Origin: Xanthomonas cassavae CFBP 4642
GTDB taxonomy: Bacteria > Pseudomonadota > Gammaproteobacteria > Xanthomonadales > Xanthomonadaceae
Direction: 5' to 3'
Assembly (NCBI RefSeq): GCF_000454545.1
Contig: NZ_CM002139.1
Span: 2,039,632-2,103,631, forward strand
Length of the DNA stretch: 64,000 nt
The translations under genes and the position numbers were made by a program. Below the pieces are notes generated by a model that was not told the DNA's origin, searched no databases, and saw only the letters and a program-made list of their open reading frames with translations. Positions 23,983-44,225 of this stretch are shown here, piece by piece (position 1 is the first letter of the stretch; each line of letters opens with the position of its first letter).

Positions 23983-24294
23983 CTGGTCGGTGTCCTCACC
24001 GGTGGTGGTCGTTGGTTCCGGCAGTTCGCACTGTGCTGCCAGGCTTGGCTCCCCACGCCGGCCGAACGGCGGCCAAGTGAGCGTGCACCGATATGTGCGG
24101 CAATGCCGATGAAAGGTTGCATCGCGCCAACGAATTTTTATCGCATCGTTGCGCGGTCGATGAGGCGTAGCACCGGTTGCTGCGCTTGCGCGGACGCGGC
24201 TTCGCAGGGTCGTGACGTCGCGCAACCTTTCGCGCATCCCGGCGCACTCAGGCATGTCGCACTACGTGCAGTCAGTGGTTACGCCCATCCGATC
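23983..24294. other. Divergent intergenic region, cytochrome group / polysaccharide cluster
   Basis: These 312 bases separate the minus-strand b561 gene from the plus-strand polysaccharide genes and should hold promoters for both. It has a locally AT-richer stretch around 24110-24150. A weak plus-strand promoter candidate is TTGCAT (24117-24122) with TATCGC (24139-24144) after a 16-nt spacer; the -10 matches poorly. No gene seen. Confidence 0.4.
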
Positions 24295-25400: not shown

Positions 25401-25402
25401 GC

Positions 25403-28387: not shown

Positions 28388-29637
28388 ATGTCGTGCGCAG
28401 CAGCGCCTACACCGGCGTTGCGACGCTGGCCAAGCTGCTGGCCGCGCTGGTGGTTGTGAAGTTGGTGGCGGTCTACGCCGGCCCGCAGGGGGTCGGCCGG
28501 CTGGGCCAGTTCCTCAATCTGATGTCGGTACTGGCGGTGCTGGCAGGCGGCGGCATCAGTGCGGGCATCGTCAAGTACGTGGCCGAGTATCGTGACGATA
28601 CGGCTGCGCTGGCACGTCTGCTCAGCGCGGCGCTCTGGTACGCGTTCTGCGCGGCCTGCGTGATGGCGGTGCTGGCGTTGCTGTTCAGTGGCGCCATCGC
28701 CGAGCGCCTGCTCGGCGATGCGGCGTACCGGCCGCTGATCTGCGTGGTGGCGGTGGCGCAGCTGGGCATCGCACTGGCCAACTACATCCTGGCGGTGATC
28801 AACGGCTTCATGGACGTGCGCCGCCTGGCATTCGTGCAGGTCAGCGGTGCGGTGCTGAGCACGGCACTGGTGGCATGGCTGTCCAGCCGGGCACAACTGC
28901 AGGGCGCCTTGCTGGCGCTGGTGCTGGGCCAGGTGCTGTGGTTGCTGGCCGGCGTGCCGGCGCTGCGGCGCAGCAGTTATTTTCGGCGCGAGATGTTGCG
29001 CATGCGCTTCGATGCGCAGATGACGCGCAGGCTGGCGGCGTTCTCGGTGATGACGCTGACCTCCACGCTGGTGCCGCAGCTGGTGACCGTGCTGGTGCGC
29101 GACCATTTGGCGCTGCAACTCGGCTGGCAGCAGGTGGGGTACTGGCAGGCGGTGAGCCGGGTGTCGGATGCGTATCTGCTGTTCTTTACGACTGCGATCA
29201 ACGTGTATTACCTGCCCAAGCTGGCATCGCTGCAGGAGCGCGCAGCGCTCGGGCGCGAGCTGCGGGCCGCGTATCGCCATGTGCTGCCGGCGGTGATCGT
29301 GATGGCGCTAGGCGTGTACCTGTGTCGCGATTGGCTGACCTGGCTGTTGTTCGACGCCCGGTTTGCCCAGGCCATCCCGCTGTATGCCCCGCAGCTGCTG
29401 GGCGATGTGATCAAGATCGCCGCCTTCGTGCTGTCGTACGTGATGCTGGCCAAGGCGATGACGCGGCTGTTCGTGGTCTCCGAATGCGTGTTTGCCGCCA
29501 GCTATCTGGCGCTGGTGTATCTGTTCACCGCGCAATGGGGGCTGATCGGCGCGATGTATGCCTTCCTCGCCAACTACGTGCTGTATCTGCTGTTCAACAT
29601 CGTGGTGGTGCGGCGCTATCTGGTGCAGCCGGCATGA
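28384..29637 (+). CDS. wzx: Polysaccharide/O-antigen flippase (Wzx family)
   Basis: This 417-aa polytopic membrane protein has about 12 helices and begins [20 protein letters not shown]. It has the MATE/Wzx-like pattern [20 protein letters not shown] and several long hydrophobic runs up to the C-terminus ([16 protein letters not shown]). It would flip lipid-linked repeat units across the inner membrane. It is closest in style to WzxE/O-antigen translocases. It overlaps genes on both sides by four bases. Confidence 0.9.
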
Positions 29638-30584
29638 GCGATTCCACCCAACCCCTCGGGCGCGCACGCTGGCCGCTGCTATCGGTGCTGATTCCGGCCT
29701 TCAACCACGAACGCTTCGTGCAACGCTGCCTGGACAGCGTGCTGGACGACCCGTACCCGTGCAAGGAACTGGTCATCATCGACGACGGCTCCAGCGACGC
29801 GACCGGCGAGAAGATTGCGCAGTGGATCGCCAGCCATGGCCACCGGCTGCCGGTGCAGTTCGTGCAGCGCGCCAATCGCGGGGTGGCGGCCACGCTCAAC
29901 GAACTGGCGCTGCGTGCGCGCGGCGAGTACCTGCGGCTGGGCGCAAGCGACGATTATCTGCTGGCCGGCGGGCTGGATGCGCAGGTGCGCTACCTGCGTG
30001 CGCATCCGCAGAAGCTGGCGGTGATCGGCGATGCCTGCGTGGTCGACCAGCATGGGCAGCTGCTGCACGGCAGCGCCATGCGCGACCTGCATCGGGTGGA
30101 TGTGGACCTGTACCGCTCCGCGTCCGGTATCCGTCGCGCGGTGATCCAGCAGTGGGGGGTCGGCGGCGCGGTGGCCTTGCTGCGTCGCAGTGCCTTCGAT
30201 GCGCGCGCCGGCTGGAACGAGTCGTTGCGGATCGAAGACTGGGATTTTTTCCTGCGCCTGGCCGCGCGTGATGCGCTGGGTTTTGTCGACGTGCCGGTGT
30301 GCGCGTACCGGTTGCATGGCCATAATCTCAGCAAGACCGTGGACGTGCACGCGCGGATTGCCAACCTGAGCGAGTCGCGTCAGGTGGCACTGCGCTGTGC
30401 GGAATTGTTCGATGCACCCGAGCGCAGCTTGCTGCACGCGCAGTCGCACTACATCGCGGCCAAGGTGGCGTTCCTGCAGCGCCGGCCGCACCGGGTGATC
30501 GTGCATCTGCTCGCCTATGCCTGGGTGTCGCTGCCGGCCAGGTGGCGGCCCAGGCAGGCGCGCAGCACGGTGAAACCGGCATGA
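29634..30584 (+). CDS. Glycosyltransferase family 2
   Basis: This 316-aa GT-A enzyme has the N-terminal WPLLSVLIPAFNHERFVQRC, the nucleotide-binding ELVIIDDGSSD and GASDDYLLAGG (DxD-like), and the later EDWDFFLRLAARD (ED-type catalytic base) with VCAYRLHGHNLSK. It adds one sugar of the repeat unit on the cytoplasmic side. Donor and acceptor are not predictable. ATGA-type overlaps on both sides. Confidence 0.93.
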   Translation: MSDSTQPLGRARWPLLSVLIPAFNHERFVQRCLDSVLDDPYPCKELVIIDDGSSDATGEKIAQWIASHGHRLPVQFVQRANRGVAATLNELALRARGEYLRLGASDDYLLAGGLDAQVRYLRAHPQKLAVIGDACVVDQHGQLLHGSAMRDLHRVDVDLYRSASGIRRAVIQQWGVGGAVALLRRSAFDARAGWNESLRIEDWDFFLRLAARDALGFVDVPVCAYRLHGHNLSKTVDVHARIANLSESRQVALRCAELFDAPERSLLHAQSHYIAAKVAFLQRRPHRVIVHLLAYAWVSLPARWRPRQARSTVKPA

Positions 30585-31714
30585 GCACGCTGTTGCGCCG
30601 ACCGGCGACCTATCTGGCACTGCCGATGCTGTTCAGTTGCGCGCTGACGCTGCTGACCTACAGCTTGCCCGGCGACTACGCGGACGGCATCGCGCTGCTG
30701 GCCGCCGCCGCCGCCACGACCTGCGTGCTGGACGCCGTGCTGCGCGTGCAGTTGCCTGCGGTGGAGCGCTTTCGCGCCTACCGCTACGCCGGCACCCGCG
30801 ACGCCTTCCTGGTGCTGACGCTGGCCGCGGTGGTCACGCTGTTCTGCATTGCGGACGTGGTGCTGTTTCCGATTCCATTGTTCAGCGACCCGTCCTCGTA
30901 TGCCACCTTGAGCCCGCTGCGCTCGCATGTGCGGCATATCTCCAACATGTGCTGGATCCTGCCGCCGATTGCGCTGCTTTGTGTGCGCCATCGCGGCTTG
31001 CGTGCGGCGATGGTGGCGTTTGGGTTCGTCTTTCCGATCGTGGTGATCGACCGCAATCGCATCTTTGCCGGGCTGTTCTCCTTCGTGCTGGTGATGCTGC
31101 TGCGGCGAGACCCGGTGCGCCGGCTGCCGTGGAAGACGATCGGCGTGCTGGTGCTGGCCGGCGGTGGGGTATTTTCGGTGCTGGGCGCGCTGCGTTCGGG
31201 CTCGTTGGCCACGGTGGCGTTGCCGTTCGGCGCGTTGTATCGCGCCATGCCGCAGGGCGTGCAGTGGTTGCTGCTGTACATCAGCGCCGGGCCGTACAAC
31301 TTCGGCGCGATCCTGGCCAAGGGCTATGTCAACACCAGCTTCCTGGTCAATCAGCTGGTGCCGTTCAGTGGCTCTGTCGCCACCGCCGGCACCAGCATCC
31401 CGCTGGATGCGCCCAATATCAATGTGGGGACCGAATTCTTTCCGTTCCTGATGGCCTGGGGCGCGCCGGGCGCCCTGCTGGCGCTGCTGGCGTTGTATGC
31501 AGGGCTGGTGTGGAGCGTGCGCTTGCTCAACGGCTCACTGTCGATCTTCCATGTGCTGATCTTCCTGCGCATCGCCTATGCCTGCCTGATGTCGCCATTC
31601 GCGCCGCAGGCCTTTACCTGGACCAACTTCGGCTTTGTCGCGCTGTGCCTGGTGCTGCATGCCTGCACTGTGCTGTTGCCCACCCGCCACGCCGCATATC
31701 CGTCTGCCGCGTGA
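30581..31714 (+). CDS. wzy: Wzy-like oligosaccharide repeat-unit polymerase
   Basis: This 377-aa membrane protein has about ten hydrophobic segments (LALPMLFSCALTLLTYSL, LVLTLAAVVTLFCIADVVLF, IGVLVLAGGGVFSVLGAL). A large loop contains SAGPYNFGAILAKGYVN, similar in place to the periplasmic loop of Wzy proteins. Position between wzx, a glycosyltransferase and a wzz-like gene supports the call. Sequence identity within this family is always low, so the assignment rests on topology and context. Confidence 0.75.
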   Translation: MSTLLRRPATYLALPMLFSCALTLLTYSLPGDYADGIALLAAAAATTCVLDAVLRVQLPAVERFRAYRYAGTRDAFLVLTLAAVVTLFCIADVVLFPIPLFSDPSSYATLSPLRSHVRHISNMCWILPPIALLCVRHRGLRAAMVAFGFVFPIVVIDRNRIFAGLFSFVLVMLLRRDPVRRLPWKTIGVLVLAGGGVFSVLGALRSGSLATVALPFGALYRAMPQGVQWLLLYISAGPYNFGAILAKGYVNTSFLVNQLVPFSGSVATAGTSIPLDAPNINVGTEFFPFLMAWGAPGALLALLALYAGLVWSVRLLNGSLSIFHVLIFLRIAYACLMSPFAPQAFTWTNFGFVALCLVLHACTVLLPTRHAAYPSAA

Positions 31715-31754
31715 ACGCGGCGATTCCATCCTCCTGTTGCAGAGCCTGCGCATC

Positions 31755-32603
31755 ATGAATCAACACGACGAAATCTATCTGATCGACCTGTGGCGCATCC
31801 TGCGCCGCGAATGGCGCTGGGCGCTGGCCGCGTTCGTCGTGGTCGTGGGGCTCAGCGTTGTGTTCCTGCGCGTGGCCAAACCACAGTGGGAAGCCGCTGC
31901 GTGGATCCAGGTGGGTGAGATCGGCCCGACGCCGGCCGGCCGCGACCCGAAAGTCGAGCCATTCCAGCGCGTGATCGATCGCATGAAGACGCGGCTGTTT
32001 CAGGATGCGGTACTGCAGCGGGCCGGCGTGCCGCTCAAGGGCCGCGCCGCGCAGCTGTATCGGAGCAGCCTCAAGCCCGATCCCGAGCCATATGCCAATC
32101 TGATCGGCATCACCATCCGTGCCGCTTCCTCACAGCAGGCGCGCAGCCTGACCATGGCGACGGTGGACACGCTGAAACGCCTGCATGGCGACACCAATAC
32201 CACCGCGCTCACGCTCGCCCGCACCCGATTGCAGGGCCTGAGCGAGGACCTGCGTGTTGCCACGCGCAACCGCGAACAGCTGCAACGGCAACTCGACGCC
32301 GGGCAGAGTGGAGCGACGAGCCCGGCGCAGGTGCTGGCTGGTGTGCTGCTGACCGACAGCAACACCAACATCCGCGCGATCAAGGCCGAGCGCGACGATC
32401 TGGTTGCGCGGCTGACCGACCGCTATACCTATCAAACCTCGCTGGCGTGGCCGGTGTATGTGCCAGAGCAGCGCGCATTTCCGAACACCGCGATGGTGGG
32501 GGCGCTCGGTCTGCTCGGTGGTGCGGGGCTGGGGGTGTTGGTGGCGGTACTGCGCGATGCCTGGCGCCGCCGTGTGCTGGCGACGTCGGCGGCTGTCGCC
32601 TGA
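31755..32603 (+). CDS. Wzz-like chain-length determinant (no kinase domain)
   Basis: This 282-aa protein has a cytoplasmic start MNQHDEIYLIDLWRILRREW and an inner-membrane helix (LAAFVVVVGLSVVFLRVA). A periplasmic part has helical Gln/Arg-rich segments (TRLQGLSEDLRVATRNREQL) and a second helix near the C-terminus (VGALGLLGGAGLGVLVAVL) ends in a short basic tail. This is the polysaccharide co-polymerase layout, without a tyrosine kinase. It should tune polymer length together with the Wzy-like protein. A 40-nt gap separates it from wzy, and a 266-nt gap follows. Confidence 0.82.
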   Translation: MNQHDEIYLIDLWRILRREWRWALAAFVVVVGLSVVFLRVAKPQWEAAAWIQVGEIGPTPAGRDPKVEPFQRVIDRMKTRLFQDAVLQRAGVPLKGRAAQLYRSSLKPDPEPYANLIGITIRAASSQQARSLTMATVDTLKRLHGDTNTTALTLARTRLQGLSEDLRVATRNREQLQRQLDAGQSGATSPAQVLAGVLLTDSNTNIRAIKAERDDLVARLTDRYTYQTSLAWPVYVPEQRAFPNTAMVGALGLLGGAGLGVLVAVLRDAWRRRVLATSAAVA

Positions 32604-32869: not shown

Positions 32870-33712
32870 ATGTCGGTGGTCAGTGAGCATGCGGCGCGTG
32901 GCGGGACGGTCGCACCGGAGCAATTGCTGGAGACGCAACGTGCGTTCGACAGCGTCGCCCCCGATTACGACGGCCCGCGCGGCAACAATGCGCTGATCCA
33001 GCGCATGCGCACCACATTGTGGGACACGGTCGCGGCCGAACTGCCGGTGGGCTCGCATCTGGTGGACCTGGGCTGCGGTACCGGCTTGGATGCCGGCGAA
33101 TTCGCACGTCGCGGTTACAACGTGCTGGCCACCGACTGGTCGCCGGCGATGGTCGAGCGCACCCGCCACCGCGCGGCTACGCGGGGCCTGCAAGAGCGCC
33201 TGAGCGCGGCCCACGTCGGCATCCAGCAGCTCGACCAACTGGAGGGCACCTTCGACGGCATGTATTCCAACTTCGGCCCGCTCAACTGCGCACCGGACCT
33301 GCCGGCGGTGGCGGCCGAATGCGCGCGTCTGCTGCGCGCCGATGGCTGTCTGGTATTCTCGGTGATCGGGCGCATCTGCCCCTGGGAAATCGGCCATTAC
33401 GGCGTGCGCGGGCGGTTCAAGCGCGCTGCGGTGCGGGCCGCGCGCGGGGTTGCCGCGGTGGGCATGAACGGCCACACCATCTGGACCTGGTACCACCTGC
33501 CGCGCGAGTTCTACCGTGCCTTCGCCAAGCACTTCGTCCTGGACCGCTATCGCGCGTTGAGCCTGTTCCTGCCGCCGCCGTACCTGGTGGATGTCTGCGA
33601 GCGCCACCCGCGCCTGGCGCAGCGCCTGGGCGCGTTGGACGATCGGTTGGGCGGACTGCCGTTGCTGCGCGACATGGGCGATCACTTCCTGATCGTGATG
33701 CGCAAGCGCTGA
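32870..33712 (+). CDS. SAM-dependent methyltransferase
   Basis: This 280-aa class I methyltransferase has motif I LVDLGCGTGLDAGEFARRG, followed by LATDWSPAMVERTR (acidic loop) and YSNFGPLNCAPDLPAVA (motif IV). A Shine-Dalgarno-like GGGAGG precedes the ATG. It starts the second half of the cluster after a 266-nt gap. It probably methylates a sugar of the surface glycan or a related metabolite. Confidence 0.9.
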   Translation: MSVVSEHAARGGTVAPEQLLETQRAFDSVAPDYDGPRGNNALIQRMRTTLWDTVAAELPVGSHLVDLGCGTGLDAGEFARRGYNVLATDWSPAMVERTRHRAATRGLQERLSAAHVGIQQLDQLEGTFDGMYSNFGPLNCAPDLPAVAAECARLLRADGCLVFSVIGRICPWEIGHYGVRGRFKRAAVRAARGVAAVGMNGHTIWTWYHLPREFYRAFAKHFVLDRYRALSLFLPPPYLVDVCERHPRLAQRLGALDDRLGGLPLLRDMGDHFLIVMRKR

Positions 33713-33724
33713 GTGGAGAGCTCG

Positions 33725-34945
33725 ATGGCCATGGCCGATGTCTGTCTGCAGGGCGCGCGCGCGATCACCCTGGCCGGGGTGTCGCACGCGGCGGTCGGCA
33801 TGCGCAACGGCCGCTTCGGTGGCACGGTCGGCACTGGAACCTTGCGGCTGGATCTGCAGGGCCATGTGCTGGCGCCGGGCCTGATCAATGCGCATGAGCA
33901 CTTGCAGGTCAACTGCGTCCCGCCGCTGCTGCAGGTAGCGCCGTTTTCCAATAGCTATGCATGGATCGAGGCGTTCCAGGCGCATTTCCAGCATCCCGAC
34001 GTGGCCGCGGCACTGCGTGTGCCCAAGGCGGGACGGCTGCGTCACGGCGGCTTGAAGAATCTGCTCGCCGGCGTGACCTGCGTGGCGCAGCACGACCCCT
34101 GGCACGCCACCCTGGATGAAGCCGGGTATCCGGTGAACGTGCTGCGCGAGTTCGGTTGGAGCTACGCGCTGGGCTGGACGGGCTACGGGCCGCCGGTGCA
34201 GGCCAGCTTTGCGGCCACGCCATCGGCGCATCCATGGATGATCCACCTGGCCGAAGGCACCGATGCGGTGGCGCGCGCCGAGCTGGACGACCTCGACCGG
34301 CTGGGGTGTCTGGCGTCCAATACGGTGCTGATCCATGGCGTGGGCCTGGGCGAGCAGGACATCGAACGGGTCATCGCGCGCGGCGCAGCGGTGGTGTGGT
34401 GCCCGTCGAGCAATCTGACTCTGCTCGGTCGCACCCTGGACCCTTGGCGCCTGTGCATGGCCGGGCGGCTCGCGCTGGGCAGCGATTCGCGCGTGAGCGG
34501 CTCGCGCGATCTGCTCGACGAACTGCACGTTGCCGCCGACAGCGGCCTGCCGCCGGACCTGCTGCTTGGCCTGGTCACCGCGCAGGCCGCACGCATCCTG
34601 CGGATGGCAACGCGCGGGCGTATCGCGCCTGGTGCGGTTGCGGATCTGGTGATCGTGCGCGACCGCGGCGGCGAGCCCGCCAACAGCATCATCGGTTGCG
34701 ATCGCAGCGCGCTGCGCGCAGTGATCCGCGACGGCAAGCCACGCATTGCCGATCCGGATTTCGCGCCGTGGTTCGATGCCGCCGGCATACAGATCATTCC
34801 GGTGCTGCTGGACGGCCGCCCCAAGTTGCTCGACGCCGCGCTGGCAGATCCAGCGGTGCTGGCACTGGAGCCGGGCCTGCAATGCGTACAGCACGCAGCG
34901 CCTTCGGCAGCTGATGCGCTGGTCGCCATCGGGGTCGCGTCGTGA
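33725..34945 (+). CDS. Amidohydrolase-family metal-dependent hydrolase
   Basis: This 406-aa TIM-barrel protein has metal-ligand positions in INAHEHLQVN (HxH), DPWHATLDEA, TVLIHGVGLGE and LALGSDSRVSGS (Asp). It begins with the small beta-sandwich lead typical of the superfamily and ends with IAPGAVADLVIVRDRGG. It is related to chlorohydrolase/cytosine-deaminase-like enzymes. A role in a polysaccharide cluster is not obvious; it could remove an amine or acyl group. It sits between two methyltransferase genes. I use ATG 33725; a GTG at 33713 is possible. Confidence 0.85.
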   Translation: MAMADVCLQGARAITLAGVSHAAVGMRNGRFGGTVGTGTLRLDLQGHVLAPGLINAHEHLQVNCVPPLLQVAPFSNSYAWIEAFQAHFQHPDVAAALRVPKAGRLRHGGLKNLLAGVTCVAQHDPWHATLDEAGYPVNVLREFGWSYALGWTGYGPPVQASFAATPSAHPWMIHLAEGTDAVARAELDDLDRLGCLASNTVLIHGVGLGEQDIERVIARGAAVVWCPSSNLTLLGRTLDPWRLCMAGRLALGSDSRVSGSRDLLDELHVAADSGLPPDLLLGLVTAQAARILRMATRGRIAPGAVADLVIVRDRGGEPANSIIGCDRSALRAVIRDGKPRIADPDFAPWFDAAGIQIIPVLLDGRPKLLDAALADPAVLALEPGLQCVQHAAPSAADALVAIGVAS

Positions 34946-35640
34946 GCGCGGTGCCGGTGCTCGATCCGGTGGATGCGTATGCGCTATGGGCGCAGGCGTA
35001 TCCGCCGCATGCGCACAATCCGGTGATGCTGGCCGAAGAGCGCGCCATGCTCGGCCTGATGCCGGCGGTGCTGCAGGGCCAGCATGTGCTGGATGCAGGC
35101 TGTGGCAGCGGCCGTTACATGTTTCATGCCTTGCGGCGGGGCGCACGGCACGTCACCGGCATCGATCTGTCGCCGCAGATGCTGCAGCGTGCCGGCACCG
35201 AACTGGCGCAGCACTGGCCGCCTGGGCGGGTGAGCCTGCAGCAGGGCAGCCTCGATCACTTGCCGCTCGCCGATGCGGTGGCCGATTTCAGTGTCTGCGG
35301 GCTGGTGGTCGGGCATCTGCCGCGGTTGTGGCCGGCGCTGGAAGAGCTGCATCGCGTCACCCGTGCCGATGGCATCGTGCTGTGCAGCGACGTGCACCCG
35401 ATCGGCGATGCGCTGGGCTGGCGCCGCGATTTCAAGTCCGACGGCCGCCACTACGCGGTGCGTCACACCCAGCATCTGTATAGCCACTGGCATTGGGCCT
35501 GCACGAAACTGGGCTTTGCGATCGAAGCCGTTGCCGAGCCGATGCTGGATCCGGCCGATATTCCCGCAGGTGCGCATTTCGACAAGGTGGCGCTGCAGGT
35601 CCCGGTGGCCCTGGTGCTGCGGTTGCGGCGCGTCGCGTGA
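34942..35640 (+). CDS. SAM-dependent methyltransferase (UbiE/Methyltransf_11 type)
   Basis: This 232-aa enzyme has motif I HVLDAGCGSGRYMFHALRRG, the acidic loop TGIDLSPQMLQRAG, and DFSVCGLVVGHLP as motif IV. It starts with GTG overlapping the amidohydrolase stop (GTGA), so the two are coupled. It likely acts on the same substrate pathway as the amidohydrolase. Confidence 0.9.
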   Translation: MSAVPVLDPVDAYALWAQAYPPHAHNPVMLAEERAMLGLMPAVLQGQHVLDAGCGSGRYMFHALRRGARHVTGIDLSPQMLQRAGTELAQHWPPGRVSLQQGSLDHLPLADAVADFSVCGLVVGHLPRLWPALEELHRVTRADGIVLCSDVHPIGDALGWRRDFKSDGRHYAVRHTQHLYSHWHWACTKLGFAIEAVAEPMLDPADIPAGAHFDKVALQVPVALVLRLRRVA

Positions 35641-35755
35641 ACGAGCGGAGCGATAGGCGGTGCCCGCGCTGTGCGAGCGGTGCTCGCTGCTTGCCGCAGT
35701 GCTGCGGACGTGGGCGATGTGGCGTGCACGTCCATCGCGCGCTGCTGTGCACGCC

Positions 35756-36886
35756 ATGACCCTGCATGTGGCCCAGCTTAATCTGGTGGCGACTCCTGAT
35801 GGCCTGAGCATCGAGCAGGTGTTCGCGCAGTGGCCGTCGCTGGCCGACATTGCCGAGGCGGTGGCCAGTGCGGGTATCCGCGTGTCGGTGATTCAGGCCT
35901 CCGCGCTGGAGGCACGCTTGTCGCGGCACGGCGTGCAGTATTGGTTTACCGCGCTCGGCCTGCGGGGCAGCGCTGCACGCGCCAGCACACTGCAAGCGCT
36001 CCTGCAGGAACTCGACGTCGATGCAATCCATGTGCATGGCCTGGAATTCGCCGGCGATGCGCGACGGCTGGCGCGTGGGCTGCCGCACACGCCGATCCTG
36101 CTGCAGGATCATGCCAACCGCCCGCCGCGATGGTGGAACCGCGCGGTGTGGCGTGCACGTTATCGAGCCGCTGCAGGAATCGCCTTTACGTCCCTGGAAC
36201 TGGCGCGGCCGTTCCAGCGTGCGCGTCTGTTCGGTGCCGGCACGCAGCTATTTGCCATTCCCGAATCCAGCAGCCGTTTTACGCCGGGCGCACAGGCGCT
36301 GGCGCGCGAGCTGACCGGCCTGCATGGCGACCCCTGTGTGGTGTGGGTGGGTCATCTGAGCCCGGCCAAGGATCCCTTATGCGTGCTCGATGCGGTCGCC
36401 ATGGCCGCGCGTCGCGTGCCTGGCCTGCACCTGTGGTGCGTCTTCGACCAGGCGCCGCTGCTGGCGCAGATCCGGCAACGGCTGCGCGAGGATCCGCTGC
36501 TGGCGCGCCGCGTGCAGTTGTTGGGCAAGGTGGAGCATGGGCGCGTGCAGACCTTGCTGCAGGCCAGCGACATCTTCGTCTCCGCCAGTCATACCGAAAG
36601 CTGCGGCTACGCGGCGCTGGAAGCCTATGCCTGCGGCAGCCTGCCGCTGCTGACCGATATCCCTGCGTTCGATGCGCTCAGCGCTGCGGGCACGGTGGGC
36701 GAACTCTGGCCGGTGGGCGATACCGCCGCACTGTCGGAACTGTTGGTGCGCGTATCGCGGCAGCGGCCCAGCCGCGCGCACGTGCGCGCGCATTTCGATG
36801 CACGCCTTTCGTTTGCCGCAGTGGGGCGGCAGTGGGCCCAGGCCTACGCCAGCGTGCTGGGTGATGCGCAGGAGCATGCGCGATGA
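35756..36886 (+). CDS. Glycosyltransferase family 4 (GT-B)
   Basis: This 376-aa enzyme starts MTLHVAQLNLVATPDGLSIE. The C-terminal half shows the GT4 pattern VVWVGHLSPAKDPLCVLDAV, RVQLLGKVEHGRVQTLLQAS and the E-x7-E-like nucleotide-sugar motif in SHTESCGYAALEAYACGSLP. It transfers one residue onto the lipid-linked repeat unit. The frame is open upstream to 35660, but the family-like start is at 35756. Its end overlaps the next glycosyltransferase by four bases. Confidence 0.9.
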   Translation: MTLHVAQLNLVATPDGLSIEQVFAQWPSLADIAEAVASAGIRVSVIQASALEARLSRHGVQYWFTALGLRGSAARASTLQALLQELDVDAIHVHGLEFAGDARRLARGLPHTPILLQDHANRPPRWWNRAVWRARYRAAAGIAFTSLELARPFQRARLFGAGTQLFAIPESSSRFTPGAQALARELTGLHGDPCVVWVGHLSPAKDPLCVLDAVAMAARRVPGLHLWCVFDQAPLLAQIRQRLREDPLLARRVQLLGKVEHGRVQTLLQASDIFVSASHTESCGYAALEAYACGSLPLLTDIPAFDALSAAGTVGELWPVGDTAALSELLVRVSRQRPSRAHVRAHFDARLSFAAVGRQWAQAYASVLGDAQEHAR

Positions 36887-37995
36887 AACTGGCGCTGGTG
36901 GTGCCGGGAGGGGTGGACCGCAGTGGCGAGGTCCGCGTGATTCCGGTGTTCCTGACCTTGATCGAGTGGCTGGCGCGCCACCATGAGGTACACGTGTTCG
37001 TCTTGCATCAGGAGCCGCTGCCGGCCACCTGGATGCTGCGCGGCGCCAAGGTGCACAACATCGGTGAGCGGCGCACGCGCCTGCGTGCAGTGGCGGCCAT
37101 CGTCGAGGAACACCGGCGCGCGCCGTTCGATGTGATTCAGGCGATCTTCTCCGGCTACTGCAGCCTGATCGCCGTCCTCGCGGCGCGGCTGCTGCGGCGT
37201 CCCAGCGTGGTGCATATCGCCGGCGGCGAACTGGTGGCGCTGCATGCGATCGGCTACGGCGGCCGCCGGCGTTGGCGTGGACGCCTGCGCGAAGCGGTGA
37301 TCCTGCGCCTGGCCGACCGGGTGACCGCTGCCAGTGAACCGATCATTGCCTGTCTGCAGGCACTGGGCCTCCAGGCGCAGCGGGTGCCATTGGGCGTGGA
37401 TCTGCGCGCATGGCCGGCGGCGCCGCCGCGTGCCCGCCACGGTGCGAGCGCACGTTTGCTGCATGTGGCCAGCCTCAATCCGGTCAAGGATCAGCGCACC
37501 TTGCTGCAGGCAATGGCCGCGCTCAGGCGCGCCGGCGTCGCCTTTACGCTGGACATGGTCGGCGTCGATACGCTGGACGGTGCCATGCAGCGTCTGGTGC
37601 AGCAGCTCGGCCTGCAGGAGCAGGTGCGCTTCCTCGGCTTCAAGACCCAGCGCGAAGTGCGCCCGATCATGCTGTCGGCCGATCTGCTGGTGCTGTCCTC
37701 GCTGCATGAAGCTGGCCCGTTGGTGCTGCTGGAAGCCGCCGTTGCCGGCGTTCCCACCGTCGGCACAGCGGTTGGCCACCTCATCGAGTGGGCACCGGTC
37801 GCAGCGTTGGCGGTTCCGCCAGGCGATTGGGCGGGCATGGCCGAGGCCATCCGCCAAGTGCTTGGCGATGACGAACTACGCCTGCGCCTGGCCTGGGCCG
37901 CGCAATGTCGCGCGGTTCGCGAAGATGCGGCGTTCACCACACGCCAGTTTGAACACCTTTACCGTCAGCTGTGCGAGCGGCGACCGCTGCGCTGA
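36883..37995 (+). CDS. Glycosyltransferase family 4 (GT-B), second copy
   Basis: This 370-aa protein starts MKLALVVPGGVDRSGEVRVI, a typical GT4 entry with Gly-rich loop. The acceptor half has VVHIAGGELVALHAIGYGG and the donor half LLHVASLNPVKDQRTLLQAM, VRFLGFKTQREVRPIMLSAD and SSLHEAGPLVLLEAAVAGVP with the two conserved Glu. It is the last gene of the plus-strand operon, followed by a terminator hairpin. Confidence 0.92.
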   Translation: MKLALVVPGGVDRSGEVRVIPVFLTLIEWLARHHEVHVFVLHQEPLPATWMLRGAKVHNIGERRTRLRAVAAIVEEHRRAPFDVIQAIFSGYCSLIAVLAARLLRRPSVVHIAGGELVALHAIGYGGRRRWRGRLREAVILRLADRVTAASEPIIACLQALGLQAQRVPLGVDLRAWPAAPPRARHGASARLLHVASLNPVKDQRTLLQAMAALRRAGVAFTLDMVGVDTLDGAMQRLVQQLGLQEQVRFLGFKTQREVRPIMLSADLLVLSSLHEAGPLVLLEAAVAGVPTVGTAVGHLIEWAPVAALAVPPGDWAGMAEAIRQVLGDDELRLRLAWAAQCRAVREDAAFTTRQFEHLYRQLCERRPLR

Positions 37996-38130: not shown

Positions 38131-38240
38131 CAGCTGTCAGCGCGATAGTGCGGCGCATGCTCGGCAACTGGCAATGCCGGGCCAGCACGTCCATCGAGGG
38201 AAATAGCACAGCGACGCACCCGGTAGCCGGCGGCCCAGCC

Positions 38241-39455
38241 TCACGCCGGCTGCAGATAGCCATCCAGCGCCGCGCGCACGACGTACAGCATGTCGGTGCG
38301 CGGGATCGGGCGGGTCAGCCGCGTCATCAGCCGACGTGCCTGGGTCTGGCGCACCCATGGCTGACCCTGCAGCCAGAATTGGGTGTGCAGCATGTCGGCA
38401 CGCTCCTTGCGGCTTTCTGCCGACGGCACCACGCGTTCGCGCACGTATTGCCGCGCCTCGCTCAACGAACCAGACCACTCGATCCCGGGCAAGGCTGGCA
38501 GCCACAGGTTGGAGCACGAGGCGGTGGTGAGGGTCTGCCGGCCGGCACGCAGGCGCAGCAGGCGCGGGCACTCGGCATGCAACCGCGCCATCACCTGCGC
38601 CGGCACCACCGCGCGGTAGTAGCGCTGCAGCAACAGCAATGGCGGCAGCGCCCACCAGGGCGACACAGCCGGGTCTGCCCACAATTGCTGCCAGTCGCGC
38701 GGGCCCATGCGGGTCGCCAGCAACGCAAGATCATGCAGATGCATCAGCCGGATGCTGCGATGGCAGATGCCTCCGGCCGCGTGCAGCAGCAGGTGGCACA
38801 TCAGGGCGCCAATGGAAGGGTAGGGGTTCAGCCCCGGCTGCGCGTGTTCCGGCCAGATCCCTGCAGTGATGTCCACGCTGCGCACCGGCAGGCGTTCCTG
38901 GATGCGCGTATGCACTTCGATGTTGATGGGAGCATCGCGGTGTTCGCCCAATCCCGCCACGGCGTCGCCTTGCACCGGTTTGAACACCTGGTGCTTCCAT
39001 TGCTGAAACGAGGCTTCATACCCGAGTTCGCACAACAGCGCGGCCGTGGCCAGCGCGTCTTCGGGCGCCACCAGCAGGTCGATGTCCGCCATCGGGCGGT
39101 CGCCGGGCAGGTAGACGCCCAGCCGATGCAGGGCGGTGCCCTTCAACCCCACCAGCGCGATGCCGGCGCTGCGCGCGGCGCTGTCGATACGGGTCAGCAG
39201 CAGCGCGATACGCCGATGGCGGTCTTCGACATGATCGCGCTGCTCGCTCAGGAAACTGTTCCATTGCGCGTTCTGCCACAACGAGCGGCGCTGCAATAGC
39301 GGCGACACGCCATGTGCCGCTGCCGCCGCTGCGGCCAGTTGCCATTGCAGGCGGTCCCACTGTGGCGAACTGTCGCCTGGCTGCGCCAGCTCGTGCGCCA
39401 GCTGCTCGGTGGCCGTGTGCAGGCCGTGTCGGATGGTACGAAGCGAAAGCTGCAT
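38241..39455 (-). CDS. Nucleotidyltransferase-family protein (NTP_transf_5 type)
   Basis: This 404-aa protein has the motif LKGTALHRLGVYLPGDRP then MADIDLLV at residues 104-129. The DxD (Asp124, Asp126) fits a minimal nucleotidyltransferase site of the PF14907 kind. A His-rich segment (ALMCHLLLHAAGGICHRSI) and a long helical C-terminal half follow. From family knowledge, such proteins sit with HPr-kinase-like, PqqD-like and ABC exporter genes in peptide-modification or polysaccharide loci; their biochemistry is unknown. It follows the radical SAM gene on the same strand. ATG 39455 (MQLSLRTIRHG) is preferred to the longer frame. Confidence 0.8.
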   Translation of the reverse strand: MQLSLRTIRHGLHTATEQLAHELAQPGDSSPQWDRLQWQLAAAAAAAHGVSPLLQRRSLWQNAQWNSFLSEQRDHVEDRHRRIALLLTRIDSAARSAGIALVGLKGTALHRLGVYLPGDRPMADIDLLVAPEDALATAALLCELGYEASFQQWKHQVFKPVQGDAVAGLGEHRDAPINIEVHTRIQERLPVRSVDITAGIWPEHAQPGLNPYPSIGALMCHLLLHAAGGICHRSIRLMHLHDLALLATRMGPRDWQQLWADPAVSPWWALPPLLLLQRYYRAVVPAQVMARLHAECPRLLRLRAGRQTLTTASCSNLWLPALPGIEWSGSLSEARQYVRERVVPSAESRKERADMLHTQFWLQGQPWVRQTQARRLMTRLTRPIPRTDMLYVVRAALDGYLQPA

Positions 39456-39676
39456 GCGGGCGTGATCCGGGAGGTCGAAGGGGCGGGGCGCAATGGTGGT
39501 GTTGCGAGTCAGTGGCGGTGCTACATGGTGGCGGCGTATCGGCTCAGCGATGGCGTTGTTGCACGCCAAGATTGCATCGGGCGCGTCGAGCGCGTTGGCA
39601 CTCCTGCTCGGTCGCGCGAGCGATGGTGTGAATGCGCACCCGGCTATTTCGCGTCCACCGGCAAGTGCATGAATCG

Positions 39677-41167
39677 CTAGCCCACCAGCACCGTGGCCAG
39701 CTGCCGGGGTGGCCGTGCGGCCAGGGTGGCCAGCGGCTCGGTACGGTGCAGCTGTTCGGAGGCGATCAAGGCGGACCAGCGCGCTTCCAGCTGCTCGGAG
39801 GCCTGCGCAACGGCATCGGCCGTCATCGTGCTTCGTGCCTGCTGCAGGTCCACCTGGGTGTGCAACAGATCGCGCACGCTGCGGTAGAACTCCGAGTCGT
39901 AGGCGCCATGGAACATCATCGCCAGGTCGTCGCTATCCTGCCAATGCGTCTTGCCGCCGAGCTGGTTCTTCACTTCTTCGTAGAACTTGGTGCCCGGCAG
40001 CGGATAGGATACGCTGACGCCGATGATGTCCGGATTGGCCTGGGTCACCAGTGCACGCGTGGCCAGGATGTCGTCGAGTTCTTCGCCCAGATAGCCCAGC
40101 TGGATGAAGAAGCCTACGCGGATTCCGTGCGCGCCCAGGCGCTGGCGGGCGGCGATCACCTCGGTTACCTCGGTGCCCTTGGTCATCCTGTCGAGGATGC
40201 GCTGGCTGCCGCTTTCCGCACCGATCCAGGCCTCCGCACATCCGGCGCGCGCCAGTGCCGCGGCCATGCGCTCGCTGGCCAGATCCGCGCGGGTCTGGAT
40301 GGTGAATGGAATGGCGCCGTCGGCCTCGCTCAAACGCTGCGCAAACGCCTCCACCCAGTCGATATGGAAGCCGAAGATGTCGTCGGCCATCCACAGGTGA
40401 TCGGGCTGGAAGTTGCGTTTGAGATGGATCATCTCGGCAGCCACGTCCTCGGCGTCGCGACGCTTGTAGTGGTTGCCCCAGATCGGCTTGGCGCACCAGT
40501 TGCAGCGGAACGGACAACCGCGCGAGGCGGCCATGTTCAGGCTGAAATAGCCATGTCGCTTCCGCCAGAAGCGCTGGTAGCGCGGCATGTCGACCAGGTC
40601 CCAGGCAGGCAGGCCGCTCAGGCGCGCGTCCGGTGGCTGTGCACCCGGATGCGCGCGTACCGCTGCCGGATCGCTGGTGGCAATGCGTGCGACACCGGAC
40701 AACCAGGCCTGCATGTCGATCTGCGGATTGCGTTCGACCCGCTCGATCAACTCGATCAACGGTGCGATGCCTTCGCCGATCAATACCGCATGCGCACCGG
40801 CGGCCAGAAATGCGTCCGGGTTGTCGGACGCATCCGAGCCCGCCACCAACACCCGGCAGCCGGCCGCGCGCGCCTGTCCGATCATGCGGCACGCCGCCTC
40901 GCGCATGCGGCTCAGGCACATCTTGGTGAGGAAGTTGAAGTTGTCCTCATAGAACACCACCAACTCCGGTTGCGCATCGTGCAGCGCGCCGGCGTAGTCC
41001 TCGACATCGTCGGCCAGCATGGCGTCGAACAGGCTCAGGACATGCCCGCGTTCGCGCAGCAATGCCGCGATCTGCAAGGTGGCCAGCGGGGGGTACGGCT
41101 TGCCGCGTTCCCATTGCTTGGGGTCGTAACGCAGGAAATACGAATGACTGACCTGGATCTTTAGCAT
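39677..41167 (-). CDS. B12-binding-domain radical SAM protein
   Basis: The protein is about 496 aa. An N-terminal Rossmann-like cobalamin-binding-type domain (PPLATLQIAALLRERGHVLS, LVVFYEDNFNFL, VLVAGSDASDNPDAFLAAGA) is followed by a radical SAM core. Its 4Fe-4S motif is CPFRCNWC in RGCPFRCNWCAKPIWGN, with later AWIGAESGSQRILDRMTKGT and GFFIQLGYLGEELDD. These enzymes methylate or rearrange unactivated carbons. The classic DxHxxG cobalamin ligand motif is not evident, so B12 may be absent. ATG 41167 is chosen; GTG 41173 is equally close. The substrate is unknown. Confidence 0.88.
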   Translation of the reverse strand: MLKIQVSHSYFLRYDPKQWERGKPYPPLATLQIAALLRERGHVLSLFDAMLADDVEDYAGALHDAQPELVVFYEDNFNFLTKMCLSRMREAACRMIGQARAAGCRVLVAGSDASDNPDAFLAAGAHAVLIGEGIAPLIELIERVERNPQIDMQAWLSGVARIATSDPAAVRAHPGAQPPDARLSGLPAWDLVDMPRYQRFWRKRHGYFSLNMAASRGCPFRCNWCAKPIWGNHYKRRDAEDVAAEMIHLKRNFQPDHLWMADDIFGFHIDWVEAFAQRLSEADGAIPFTIQTRADLASERMAAALARAGCAEAWIGAESGSQRILDRMTKGTEVTEVIAARQRLGAHGIRVGFFIQLGYLGEELDDILATRALVTQANPDIIGVSVSYPLPGTKFYEEVKNQLGGKTHWQDSDDLAMMFHGAYDSEFYRSVRDLLHTQVDLQQARSTMTADAVAQASEQLEARWSALIASEQLHRTEPLATLAARPPRQLATVLVG

Positions 41168-41388
41168 CTGCACAAGGCTCTCGTTCTGTCGCCAGGTGGC
41201 GCGCAGCGGCGGCGTGCGCAGACACCGGCATTCGGCTCGGCAGTAGGTGCGCGCACAGGCGTCTTTGGTTGCGCTGCTGCGCTGCGTGAAATGGCAACCG
41301 ATGACGCCTGTTCAGCGCGTACAGCGATGCAACCTTTGCGCGCGCAGTCGGCACACACCGGCTGATCGATGCATTGGATGACAGGCAT
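41161..41388 (-). CDS. Possible small Cys-rich peptide (doubtful)
   Basis: This open frame of 75 codons, on the radical SAM strand, starts MPVIQCIDQPVCADCARKGC and ends in a Cys-rich tail (ALCRC), with its stop overlapping the radical SAM start. Four Cys occur in the first 20 residues. Against it: about 63% GC at third positions in the first 30 codons, lower than I would expect for local genes, no clear ribosome site, and overlap with the HPr-kinase-like gene's start on the other strand. I list it because of its place, not because I am convinced it is translated. Confidence 0.2.
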   Translation of the reverse strand: MPVIQCIDQPVCADCARKGCIAVRAEQASSVAISRSAAAQPKTPVRAPTAEPNAGVCARRRCAPPGDRTRALCRC

Positions 41389-42442
41389 GCCGCAGTCGGC
41401 TGCGTTGGCGCAATACCAGCCGCTGGAAGAGCGCGCACGCGACGCGGCCAAGGCCGCCGTGGCGGCGGACCCGTTCGGCGAACAGCGCGTGCGTGCCTTC
41501 AGCGTGCAGCGGCAGATTCTTGGTGCGCTGTTCCATTTCCACAGCGATAGCCCGGCGCTGCTGGCCCTGGTCGATGCCGCCTATGCCGGCTTGCCGGCAC
41601 ATCACCTACCGGGTGCGCTGCAGTTCCACATCACCCTGGATCTGCTGCCGGACGCGCACGGCAGCGTGGTCGCCGAGCCGCCGCCGGTGCGCACGCATGC
41701 AGTGGGCGGCCTGGTCTGTGGCGTGATGGATGCTTGCAACTACCTGATGCTGTCGATCCCGGAGCGCCGCGCCATGCTGGTGGTCTCGGAGGACATGCTG
41801 GCGCATGCGTACCACGTGCGCTACGAGCTGATCGAGTTTGCGGTGTTCCTGCTGGCAGCGCGTGGCATGGGGCTGGTGCCGCTGCACGGCGCCTGCGTGG
41901 GCCGGCGCGGCCGCAGCGTGCTGCTGCTCGGCGCCAGCGGCGCGGGTAAATCCACGCTGGCGCTGCACAGCCTGCTGCACGGGCTGGAGTTCATCGCCGA
42001 AGACGGCGTATTCGTGGCGCCGGACAGCCTGCTGACCACCGGCGTTGCCAACTTCCTGCATCTGCGGCCCGAGGTCTTGGGCCTGGTCGATGCGCCCACC
42101 CGCGCATGGATCACTGCCTCGCCGATCATTCGTCGCCGCAGTGGCGTGGAAAAGTTCGAAGTCGACATCCGTCACGGCCATGCCACGCTTGCGCCCACGC
42201 CCCTGCAGCTGAGTGCCGTGGTGATGCTGTCCAAGCAGCCGGCCAGCACATCGGGCAACGGACTGATGCCCGTGCCAGCCGCGCAGATAGCGCAGTGCCT
42301 GCAGCGCGACCAGCCCTATGCCGCCGGCCAGCCGGGGTGGCAACGCTTCGTGGCGCAGGTGCAGCGCATCGGCATGTTCACCCTGCACCGTGGCGCGCAC
42401 CCGCAGGCTTCGCTGGACGCCTTGCTGCAGGTGCTGCGGTGA
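41369..42442 (+). CDS. HPr kinase/phosphorylase-like protein (HprK-related)
   Basis: The protein is about 357 aa. The C-terminal half carries a P-loop GASGAGKST (188-196) in GRSVLLLGASGAGKSTLALH followed by LEFIAEDGVFV, as in HprK-like kinases. The N-terminal part (ALLALVDAAYAGLPAHHLPG) matches the extended HprK-related group rather than true HprK. No HPr gene is nearby. Such proteins occur with PqqD-like and nucleotidyltransferase proteins in uncharacterised clusters. Starts at 41369, 41378 or 41387 are possible. The ABC exporter gene follows after 58 nt. Confidence 0.82.
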   Translation: MHWMTGMPQSAALAQYQPLEERARDAAKAAVAADPFGEQRVRAFSVQRQILGALFHFHSDSPALLALVDAAYAGLPAHHLPGALQFHITLDLLPDAHGSVVAEPPPVRTHAVGGLVCGVMDACNYLMLSIPERRAMLVVSEDMLAHAYHVRYELIEFAVFLLAARGMGLVPLHGACVGRRGRSVLLLGASGAGKSTLALHSLLHGLEFIAEDGVFVAPDSLLTTGVANFLHLRPEVLGLVDAPTRAWITASPIIRRRSGVEKFEVDIRHGHATLAPTPLQLSAVVMLSKQPASTSGNGLMPVPAAQIAQCLQRDQPYAAGQPGWQRFVAQVQRIGMFTLHRGAHPQASLDALLQVLR

Positions 42443-42500
42443 GGCCGCTGCGCGAGCGGCAGCAGGCGCGGGTCGGCACTGCAGGCGATGTGCGCGGCTG

Positions 42501-44225
42501 ATGTTTCGGCACGCACGCAATCGGATCCGGGCGGTGCTGCATGGCTTCGTCGACACGCTGGTGCCGGCGGACCGGCCGGCCGTCGCGCTGTACGTGGCAT
42601 TGTCGCTGGCGGCCGCATGCATCGGCAGCCTCGTGGCGGTGTGTCTGTTGCCGTTGGTGCAACCCGGCCACAGCGTGCAGCTGGCCGGTTATCGGCTGGC
42701 CGTGCCCGGGGGACTGCCGGTGCAGGCAGGCGTGTTTGTAGTCGTCAGCGCGCTGTTCGCGCTGTTGCGTTGGCACGGCGCGCGGCTGGCCGCACGCCTG
42801 ACCAGCCGGTATGCGCTGGGCCTGCGCCGGCGCGTGCATGCGGCGCTGATGGATGCGCCGCTGCCGGCCTTGTCGGGCGCCAGTTCGGCGGAAATCGCCA
42901 ATGTGCTGACCTACAATATCGAAATCGCAACACAGGGGTTCAGCGCGGTCTTGCAACTGCTGGTGGCCGGCATCACCGCGCTGGTCAGCGTGTGCGTGGC
43001 GGTGTCGATCGTGCCTGCGTTGCTGCTTGCGACACCGCTGCTCGCGCTGCTGGCATGGCTGGGGCTGCGCATCTCCAGCAGCGATGTGCAGGCGCGCATC
43101 AGCCGCGACTACGTCGCCGACATGACCCAGCTGTTCTGGTTGAGCGAGGACTTCCCGCGCCGCCTGCGCCATGTGCGCTCGTTTGAGCGCGAAGCGGTGG
43201 AAACCCGGCAGTACGAGCACATGTCCACCCGCCTGGGACGCGGATACGCGCAGCAGCAGGAACTGGTGGCCGCCAGCCGCCTGGTGCTGGAGCTCACCGC
43301 GGTGGCTGCCATTGCCGGCATCCTGGTGCTCGCCAACCTGTGGCAGGGCGCCGACCGCGCGGCGCTGATCACGGTCGGTCTGTTGCTTGGCCGCCTGCTG
43401 CCGTATCTGGTCACCACGCGGCAGAGCGTGCAGCAGCTGCGCTCAGCCTGGCCGGCCCTGCAGCTGTGGCGGCGCTACGTGGATCTGGGCACGCCAGGTG
43501 CGCCTGCATCGAATGCGGCTGCCGAACGGCTGCCGGCCGTGCTGCATCTGGAGCGCATCGATCTGGCACCGCCGCTGCCCGCGCTTGCGATCGACGGCTT
43601 GCTGCTGGTGGCGGGGGAGATGACCTTGGTGGTCGGCCCATCCGGTATCGGCAAGAGCAGTCTGATGGACGTGCTGTCAGGGCAAACGCCGCCGCTGCTG
43701 TTCGAGGCGCATATGAGCGGGCGTCGGCTGGATTTTGCCGCCTATCGACAGCTGATCCGCCATAGCGCCTACGTCAGTCAGGCCGTGCGCCCCTGGCAAT
43801 GCAACGTGCGCGAGTGCCTGGACTGGGCGCTGCCGGGGACGCCCGATGACCGCATGTGGGACGTGCTGTGCGATGTCGGCCTGGGCGCACGGCTGCAACG
43901 CGAGGGGCAGGGCCTGGACACCGTCATCAATGGGCAGGAGGGCCGCCTGTCCGGCGGTGAGTTGCAACGCCTGCTGCTGGCGCAGGTGTTGCTGCGCGCC
44001 CCGACCCTGGCGGTGCTGGACGAGGCCACCAGCGCCCTCGATGCGGACGCCGAACAGCAGGTACTGGTGACCCTGCGGCAGCGGTTGCCGCAGACCGCCT
44101 TGGTGGTGGTGTCGCACCGCACCAGTCTGGCCGCGGTGGCCGATCGCACCGTTGCGCTGGGCGGCGCAGCGGTCGCGCAGGCGCAGGGCAGGGTCACGGC
44201 CATGGCGACCCGCCGCGGCGCCTGA
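42501..44225 (+). CDS. ABC transporter with fused membrane and ATPase domains (exporter)
   Basis: This 574-aa half-transporter starts MFRHARNRIRAVLHGFVDTL. About six helices (VALYVALSLAAACIGSLVAV, LQLLVAGITALVSVCVAVSI, VLELTAVAAIAGILVLANLW) precede the ATPase. Walker A is GPSGIGKSS, the Q-loop VSQAVRPW, the signature LSGGELQRLLLAQ, Walker B LAVLDEATSALD and the H-loop VVSHRTS. It should work as a homodimer exporting a peptide, lipid or glycan. Pairing with an HPr-kinase-like gene recalls the exporters of lasso-peptide-like loci, but the cyclase and leader peptidase are absent here. Confidence 0.92.
   Translation: MFRHARNRIRAVLHGFVDTLVPADRPAVALYVALSLAAACIGSLVAVCLLPLVQPGHSVQLAGYRLAVPGGLPVQAGVFVVVSALFALLRWHGARLAARLTSRYALGLRRRVHAALMDAPLPALSGASSAEIANVLTYNIEIATQGFSAVLQLLVAGITALVSVCVAVSIVPALLLATPLLALLAWLGLRISSSDVQARISRDYVADMTQLFWLSEDFPRRLRHVRSFEREAVETRQYEHMSTRLGRGYAQQQELVAASRLVLELTAVAAIAGILVLANLWQGADRAALITVGLLLGRLLPYLVTTRQSVQQLRSAWPALQLWRRYVDLGTPGAPASNAAAERLPAVLHLERIDLAPPLPALAIDGLLLVAGEMTLVVGPSGIGKSSLMDVLSGQTPPLLFEAHMSGRRLDFAAYRQLIRHSAYVSQAVRPWQCNVRECLDWALPGTPDDRMWDVLCDVGLGARLQREGQGLDTVINGQEGRLSGGELQRLLLAQVLLRAPTLAVLDEATSALDADAEQQVLVTLRQRLPQTALVVVSHRTSLAAVADRTVALGGAAVAQAQGRVTAMATRRGA

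Follow-up and report, generated by a model that had tools for sequence, protein, structure and literature searches.

What do four neighbouring genes for a nucleotidyltransferase, a radical S-adenosylmethionine (SAM) protein, an HPr-kinase-like protein and an ATP-binding cassette (ABC) exporter do in Xanthomonas cassavae CFBP 4642, and on what substrate do they act? The genes lie at positions 38,241 to 44,225 of the 64,000-nucleotide stretch of DNA analysed here (contig NZ_CM002139.1, positions 2,039,632 to 2,103,631; hereafter the window), and an initial annotation, made from the sequence alone, had described them as a compact unit of their own that might modify and export a peptide or carrier. 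Comparison across genomes places them instead at one end of a conserved surface-glycan locus of the Wzx/Wzy type, which the initial annotation missed and whose gene order is kept across two families, the Xanthomonadaceae and the Rhodanobacteraceae; this placement is well supported. We put at roughly 55% the probability that the unit serves that locus in tailoring and export, with the kinase and the nucleotidyltransferase acting on a glycan intermediate. As a variant, the combination of genes in fixed order is new; in its glycan part the locus is an ordinary one of the Wzx/Wzy kind. The unit is made up as follows (coordinates are window positions):

38241..39455, minus strand: nucleotidyltransferase-fold protein of family NTP_transf_5 (PF14907, E 2.8e-27, 96.3 bits, cut-off 31.2); the open reading frame (ORF) extends upstream to 39569
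39677..41167, minus strand: B12-type radical SAM protein (PF04055, E 8.8e-16); alternative GTG start at 41173
41174..41368, no strand: divergent intergenic region, 195 bp in X. cassavae; across 82 radical SAM-kinase pairs the matched ends are 107-449 bp apart
41369..42442, plus strand: HPr-kinase-like kinase (PF07475 Hpr_kinase_C, E 1.9e-5, below cut-off)
42501..44225, plus strand: MsbA/HepA/PglK-type ABC exporter (PF00005/PF00664; Walker A and signature motifs)

Placement of the four genes in a glycan locus

The linkage in relatives on which the initial proposal depended is upheld. In an order-level sample of 397 genomes from 98 genera, the radical SAM gene occurs in 83 genomes of 11 genera and the kinase gene in 84, all 83 among them; the two lie on one contig in 82 of the 83 (in G749 they are on two contigs), and all 82 pairs are adjacent and divergent. 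In the additional kinase genome, G092, the radical SAM protein is present only up to residue 162, near a contig end. Across 80 loci with 10-kb flanks, the best 80 of 255 confirmed radical SAM matches, the nucleotidyltransferase and radical SAM genes are present in all 80, the kinase gene in 79 and the ABC gene in 78; one locus (L064) is without kinase and ABC genes because its contig ends there.

The company that the unit keeps is equally constant. Stretches of 40 kb from ten genomes chosen for long contigs (eight genera, none of them Xanthomonas) share one order in ten cases out of ten: an FdtA-type sugar ketoisomerase, an ORF without Pfam family, a FemAB-like acyltransferase, a DegT-type aminotransferase, a Wzx flippase, a family 2 glycosyltransferase (GT2), a Wzy-like protein and a Wzz regulator; then a methyltransferase (MT1), an amidohydrolase, a second methyltransferase (MT2), a second radical SAM gene, two family 4 glycosyltransferases (GT4a and GT4b), the nucleotidyltransferase and radical SAM genes in reverse orientation, the kinase gene and the ABC gene. 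The corresponding genes of X. cassavae are:

24103..24732, plus strand: FdtA/WxcM-C type sugar ketoisomerase, first gene of the conserved glycan locus (PF05523, E 5.8e-44; 10/10 extended stretches; start uncertain)
24579..25400, plus strand: hexapeptide acyltransferase, perhaps FdtC-like (PF00132, E 3.4e-19; start uncertain; seen in the X. cassavae window)
24710..26356, plus strand: ORF without Pfam family, matched in 10/10 extended stretches, in several of them in part
26277..27275, plus strand: FemAB/GNAT-like acyltransferase (PF13480; weak TIGR03019 match, 39.5 bits, cut-off 260)
27263..28387, plus strand: DegT/DnrJ/EryC1 sugar aminotransferase (PF01041, E 4.2e-109)
28360..29637, plus strand: Wzx flippase, WzxE-like (PF01943, E 1.4e-11, 44.8 bits, cut-off 28.2; PRK15099 WzxE, 292.7 bits, cut-off 325)
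29634..30584, plus strand: GT2 glycosyltransferase (PF00535, E 1.5e-18 in the longer ORF 28875-30584; start uncertain)
30542..31714, plus strand: Wzy-like membrane protein with several passes and no Pfam family (a simple scan shows 7 hydrophobic segments)
31635..32603, plus strand: Wzz chain-length regulator (PF02706, E 6.1e-9, 36.5 bits, cut-off 25.5)
32870..33712, plus strand: class I methyltransferase MT1 (PF13649, E 7.5e-17)
33713..34945, plus strand: amidohydrolase (PF01979, E 7.7e-16)
34942..35640, plus strand: class I methyltransferase MT2 (PF08241, E 5.9e-21)
35660..36886, plus strand: glycosyltransferase GT4a (PF00534, E 4.7e-15)
36883..37995, plus strand: glycosyltransferase GT4b, EpsE-like (PF00534, E 2.6e-25; EpsE, 101 bits, cut-off 400)

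The real gene within 24710..26356 looks like its second half (about 25400-26356), and the Wzy-like protein is the probable polymerase, a role assigned from its position. Within the flanks of the 80 loci, GT4b is found in 76, GT4a in 75, MT2 in 70, the amidohydrolase in 69, MT1 in 61, Wzz in 56 and the Wzy-like gene in 54, numbers that drop with distance from the anchor because flanks and contigs end. In the loci of core Xanthomonas (26, L038-L063) gene order is identical within the flanks. The second radical SAM protein (about 505 residues; PF02310, 60 bits and over cut-off, plus PF04055) has its gene between MT2 and GT4a: all 44 non-core loci in which both of these neighbours are present have it (the non-core set being L064-L117, 54 loci with a few Xanthomonas of other clades), and none of the 26 core Xanthomonas loci does. 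A search of the X. cassavae genome at E 1e-10, run without a positive control, gave no match to it, and the gene has probably been lost in core Xanthomonas.

The radical SAM gene of the unit was matched in 32 of 35 genomes sampled from the genus, X. cassavae included (two of the 32, G092 and G176, are incomplete or interrupted), and not in the other three (G151, G162 and G163) at E 1e-20. It occurs in 10 of 149 genomes and 2 of 54 genera in the family sample, and a profile search of the class sample (369 genomes) at E 1e-90 found the X. cassavae genome alone. Among the matches listed, the closest named relative is from Xanthomonas floridensis (98% identical) and almost all named close relatives belong to genera of the Xanthomonadales; one close radical SAM protein and one close kinase are filed under an Acidobacteriaceae metagenome bin, possibly by misbinning. 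Because of this distribution at genus, family, order and class level, the gene is characteristic of one section of a single order, the Xanthomonadaceae and Rhodanobacteraceae. A plasmid origin was considered and rejected: translated searches (tblastn) of plasmids returned 28 records, all below 60% identity and none covering 80%.

All four ORFs are present where the initial annotation had put them, and the family names and divergent arrangement that it gave are borne out by ORF positions and Pfam matches. The nucleotidyltransferase gene probably starts near 39455 rather than at 39569, because relatives suggest the shorter form; the ATG at 41167 is probably the start of the radical SAM gene, because the aligned family begins MLKIQ; and the exporter gene probably starts near 42501, because the start at 42318 overlaps the kinase gene and relatives have about 574 residues. 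The B12-binding domain PF02310 was matched in the radical SAM protein with a score below the Pfam cut-off, and PF07475 is carried, according to precomputed annotation, by nearly all of 120 listed kinase homologues. NCBIfam gave an above-cut-off match for none of the four proteins (for the exporter, among its best 25 matches listed). In a sequence search of the PDB the nucleotidyltransferase had no match up to E 1 and the kinase matched KaiC, HPr kinase and a few others weakly; the predicted folds of these two proteins are assigned from their sequence families.

Active-site motifs are conserved. In the radical SAM protein the cysteines of the CxxxCxxC cluster motif (C220, C224 and C227) are invariant in 29 of 29 aligned sequences, as are the nucleotidyltransferase motifs KG, R-P-M-A-D-I-D (D124-I-D126) and E-x-H (E180) in 21 of 21. 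At least 97% of 80 kinase sequences retain H173, E211-D212 and P-loop residues from G188 to T196, all of which we take to be of the kind used by HPr kinases, and the Walker A, signature and Walker B residues of the exporter are kept in at least 97% of 77 sequences. Ratios of nonsynonymous to synonymous substitution of 0.06-0.33 indicate purifying selection on the four genes and five neighbours (54 comparisons, nine genes by six Xanthomonas loci; the four unit genes alone account for 24). Broken copies were also seen: in the set of loci L061, L063 and L041 the nucleotidyltransferase gene of X. phaseoli, the radical SAM gene of X. vasicola and the ABC gene of X. pisi are each in two pieces, and the radical SAM gene of G176 has an in-frame stop; these may be decay or draft errors.

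Kinase and nucleotidyltransferase pairs in other systems

NTP_transf_5 is widespread (PF14907 over its cut-off in 122 of 299 genomes of a phylum sample), and 20 other places that encode it, sampled by score and contig extent, were compared as stretches of 11-18 kb. A hidden Markov model (HMM) of the glycan-locus kinase finds a relative in 18 of the 20, adjoining the nucleotidyltransferase gene in most of the 18 and some kilobases off in L200, L206 and L213; yet to our knowledge the joint chemistry of such a pair is known from one lasso peptide case only. The earlier statement that these families recur in poorly understood loci is supported for the kinase and nucleotidyltransferase; the radical SAM HMM matched in none of the 20 at E 1e-3. 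Because the radical SAM gene was not found in these places, the full foursome seems peculiar to the Xanthomonadaceae/Rhodanobacteraceae group.

The nearest described arrangements are the HPr-rel-A system (TIGR04352 HprK_rel_A, TIGR04353 PqqD_rel_X and NTP_transf_5) and the lasso peptide clusters of paeninodin and pseudomycoidin. The HPr-rel-A system likewise brings an HPr-kinase-like protein and NTP_transf_5 into one locus; NCBIfam recognises its kinase and PqqD proteins in L199 and L212 and the PqqD protein in L205, and in L199 it precedes the XrtA/PEP-CTERM amidotransferase (TIGR03108), so that it, too, lies near glycan genes. The kinase and NTP_transf_5 pairing of the sampled places is this HPr-rel-A association, and the X. 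cassavae unit represents a divergent variant of it. The X. cassavae kinase scores 30.4 bits with TIGR04352 against a cut-off of 200 (controls: L199, 395.6; L212, 345.2), and its locus differs in having no detected PqqD, in carrying kinase and nucleotidyltransferase genes on opposite strands, and in adding a B12 radical SAM protein and an ABC exporter. With the model for HPr kinase/phosphorylase, TIGR00679, it scores 23.2 bits against a cut-off of 240, and the P-loop and neighbouring residues are conserved.

The lasso clusters share with the unit a kinase (PadeK or PsmK) and, in PsmN, a nucleotidyltransferase within one cluster; the window differs in having no precursor found, no PqqD and no asparagine-synthase-like cyclase, and has radical SAM and glycan genes instead. 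We take PadeK and PsmK to be of the HPr-kinase type, the clusters to include an exporter, and PsmN to belong to PF14907. According to a review (PMC9266682), the C-terminal serine of pseudomycoidin is reported to be phosphorylated by PsmK, after which PsmN adds one or two hexoses to the phosphoserine, though glycosylation by the host after nucleotidylation could not be excluded. By the curated model the unit is outside HPr-rel-A, and it does not belong to the lasso clusters either; by analogy, its kinase and nucleotidyltransferase may work as theirs do.

The glycan part resembles Wzx/Wzy loci of the enterobacterial common antigen and O-antigen type in its FdtA, hexapeptide acyltransferase, DegT, WzxE-like Wzx, GT2, Wzy-like and Wzz genes, and differs from them by the extra amidohydrolase, methyltransferases, B12 radical SAM protein, HprK-like kinase, NTP_transf_5 and ABC exporter. 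The radical SAM protein shares a weak B12-type N-terminal domain and the CxxxCxxC motif with HpnJ, BchE, AprD4 and TIGR04072, which are among its best NCBIfam and PDB matches. Three papers on radical SAM proteins and Xanthomonas (PMC3130047, PMC8336823, PMC2883993) appear, from the parts available, to concern other genes, a judgement made without sequence comparison.

Proposed role and alternatives

For the chemistry of the unit (what the kinase and nucleotidyltransferase do, which reaction the radical SAM protein carries out and what the ABC protein transports) we infer the following scheme. The locus would make an undecaprenyl-linked oligosaccharide with an acetamido-dideoxy sugar derived from deoxythymidine diphosphate (dTDP) sugars, as the genes for FdtA, the hexapeptide acyltransferase and DegT suggest by what we assume to be their pathway to an acetamido-dideoxyhexose. 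The HPr-kinase-like enzyme would phosphorylate a hydroxyl of the oligosaccharide intermediate or of a linked group; the nucleotidyltransferase would transfer a nucleotidyl or sugar group onto that phosphate, as reported for PsmK and PsmN on pseudomycoidin; the B12 radical SAM protein would add a C-methyl group or make a related radical modification; and the product would cross the inner membrane by way of the ABC protein. The acceptor is placed on the glycan or its carrier because no precursor was found and the glycan locus is in constant company. In its most specific form, a phosphorylate-then-transfer pair on a glycan or lipid carrier, with the outcome that a surface polysaccharide, modified by B12 radical SAM enzymes as well, bears a phosphodiester-linked group, the scheme is tentative and rather doubtful. 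The locus, which occurs in cultivated genera with its order fixed, offers a kinase and a nucleotidyltransferase with no PqqD or cyclase detected, beside a glycan pathway with an isolable product; it would allow a direct test of the substrate, and would reveal whether xanthomonad surface polysaccharide is tailored by B12 radical SAM enzymes.

Several points weigh against a tailoring and export role. The ABC substrate may be something else, because the locus has its own Wzx flippase, and in L070 the ABC match is missing although the contig continues. The kinase and nucleotidyltransferase genes are not neighbours, the radical SAM gene lying between them, and the PsmN precedent is ambiguous and peptide-based. 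The NCBIfam scores of the radical SAM protein are far under the curated cut-offs (at best 90.9 against 360), none of them assigning it a function. The scan of the locus genes turned up no initiating transferase; PF00953 has two matches in the genome, both beyond the window, and PF02397 was not searched genome-wide. In L078 the three genes scanned from the interval between GT4b and the nucleotidyltransferase gene encode two aminotransferases and a flavin adenine dinucleotide (FAD) oxidoreductase, which are not glycan decoration genes. A literature search, with most subscription papers outside it, found no product, mutant or biochemistry for the locus; nor was a description of the locus, or of such a class of glycan tailoring, recognised in that literature, the search having been aimed only partly at the locus.

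The alternative that survives best is a ribosomal peptide product: the kinase, nucleotidyltransferase and radical SAM protein would modify a precursor encoded elsewhere or missed, the ABC protein would export it, and the glycan linkage would be a neighbourhood effect or reflect attachment of the peptide to the glycan. Among the 20 other NTP_transf_5 places, an HMM of PqqD-like proteins (built from six of them) matches in 13, in some weakly, and an asparagine-synthase HMM (from one of them and a second X. cassavae cluster) in 10, both of which favour a peptide. The ABC HMM matches in 7; its strong matches in 2 (L200 and L213) also favour a peptide, though these two ABC genes are only about 35% identical in the aligned part, and so do the weak matches of the radical SAM protein, which include maturases of ribosomally synthesized and post-translationally modified peptides (RiPPs). 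Within the 80 glycan loci, however, neither the PqqD-like HMM, whose limited sensitivity is seen in its missing the PF05402 place of L229, nor the asparagine-synthase HMM has a match, and the glycan genes accompany the unit in every extended stretch. The absence of PqqD and asparagine synthase from the window, noted at the outset, is confirmed by genome searches (two PF05402 places and seven listed PF00733 matches, all elsewhere), and no transglutaminase family was matched among the locus proteins scanned with Pfam, the whole genome not having been searched for it.

A small ORF constantly associated with the unit, which the initial annotation had suggested looking for, was sought as a precursor among ORFs of 18-130 residues in five types of gap (gaps over 1200 bases were skipped), covering, of the 80 loci, 55 Wzz-MT1 gaps, 79 radical SAM-HprK gaps, 75 HprK-ABC gaps, 57 GT4b-nucleotidyltransferase gaps and 74 gaps past the ABC gene, the FdtA-Wzz gaps lying outside the search. 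Beyond gene tails, none of the top-ranked ORFs listed for each gap stood out as a precursor-like ORF shared across genera, and a peptide substrate is accordingly not supported, though a precursor that is not conserved, lies far off or is placed differently may have escaped this search. The cross-genus ORFs listed were rejected as tails of the Wzz, HprK and nucleotidyltransferase genes, and the top ORFs past the ABC gene outside Xanthomonas look like its tail; a low-complexity ORF of 31 residues in the same gap of Xanthomonas, with two loci outside the genus, is read as chance. A cysteine-rich ORF in the divergent gap (41161-41451, minus strand) has counterparts in at most 25 loci, at most one of them outside Xanthomonas, and overlaps the radical SAM start; it was rejected as a precursor and may represent conserved promoter or ribosome-binding DNA. 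On balance, a peptide product appears unlikely.

A glycan tailoring role has also to be set against the idea that the half of the locus from MT1 to the ABC gene is an independent small-molecule pathway, yielding a glycosylated, radically modified and ABC-exported metabolite, that lies beside the Wzx/Wzy half by chance. The tight cluster from MT1 to GT4b, separated from Wzz by a median gap of 158 bp (56 loci), and the metabolic genes of L078 are in its favour; against it, Wzx, GT2, the Wzy-like gene and Wzz stand beside it in one and the same order in all ten extended stretches, and we hold this explanation to be improbable. That the kinase is regulatory, phosphorylating a protein that controls glycan output while the other genes tailor independently, would fit the general notion, here assumed, of HPr kinases as protein kinases and the co-orientation of the kinase gene with the exporter gene, apart from the other two, but is about as improbable: the protein scores far below true HPr kinases, and the recurrence of its relatives near NTP_transf_5 in 18 of 20 loci of other organisms indicates joint chemistry.

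Intergenic region, variable interval and further observations

The divergent gap had been proposed as a shared promoter region of about 200 bp. Its length agrees (195 bp) and the promoter is unproven: a scan of 41174-41368 for sites of the sigma-70 type picked up nothing promoter-like, the count of promoter- and terminator-like sites in 37900-44400 is no higher than in shuffled sequence, and Rfam has no match across 23000-45000.

The interval between GT4b and the nucleotidyltransferase gene holds about 1-11 kb of extra sequence in some relatives. Nine proteins encoded in such intervals were scanned: one sulfotransferase, one acyltransferase 3, three methyltransferases and one flavin-reductase-like protein, this variable content being seen in relatives such as L080, L081, L085, L106 and L112, and the three from L078. 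The sulfotransferase, acyltransferase 3 and methyltransferase genes are presumably for glycan decoration.

Two other gene groups have a partly similar composition. The second X. cassavae cluster, outside the window (G000:C6:138637-157550; L229 covers part of it), has NTP_transf_5, a PqqD-domain place and two asparagine-synthase-like places and is RiPP- or lasso-like. In L213 (1660-9235) an ABC gene and an HprK-like gene diverge, and an asparagine-synthase-like ORF and NTP_transf_5 come next, a similar divergent layout in a locus that bears a cyclase.

Beside the glycan locus, the region 17710-24255 encodes a subtilase, a zf-HC2 anti-sigma-like protein, an ORF without family, a CxxCH haem-type protein and a cytochrome b561. 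The first four of these genes are in the same order in six of the ten extended stretches, and the haem-type protein is found in seven; two of the ten begin too late to include these genes.

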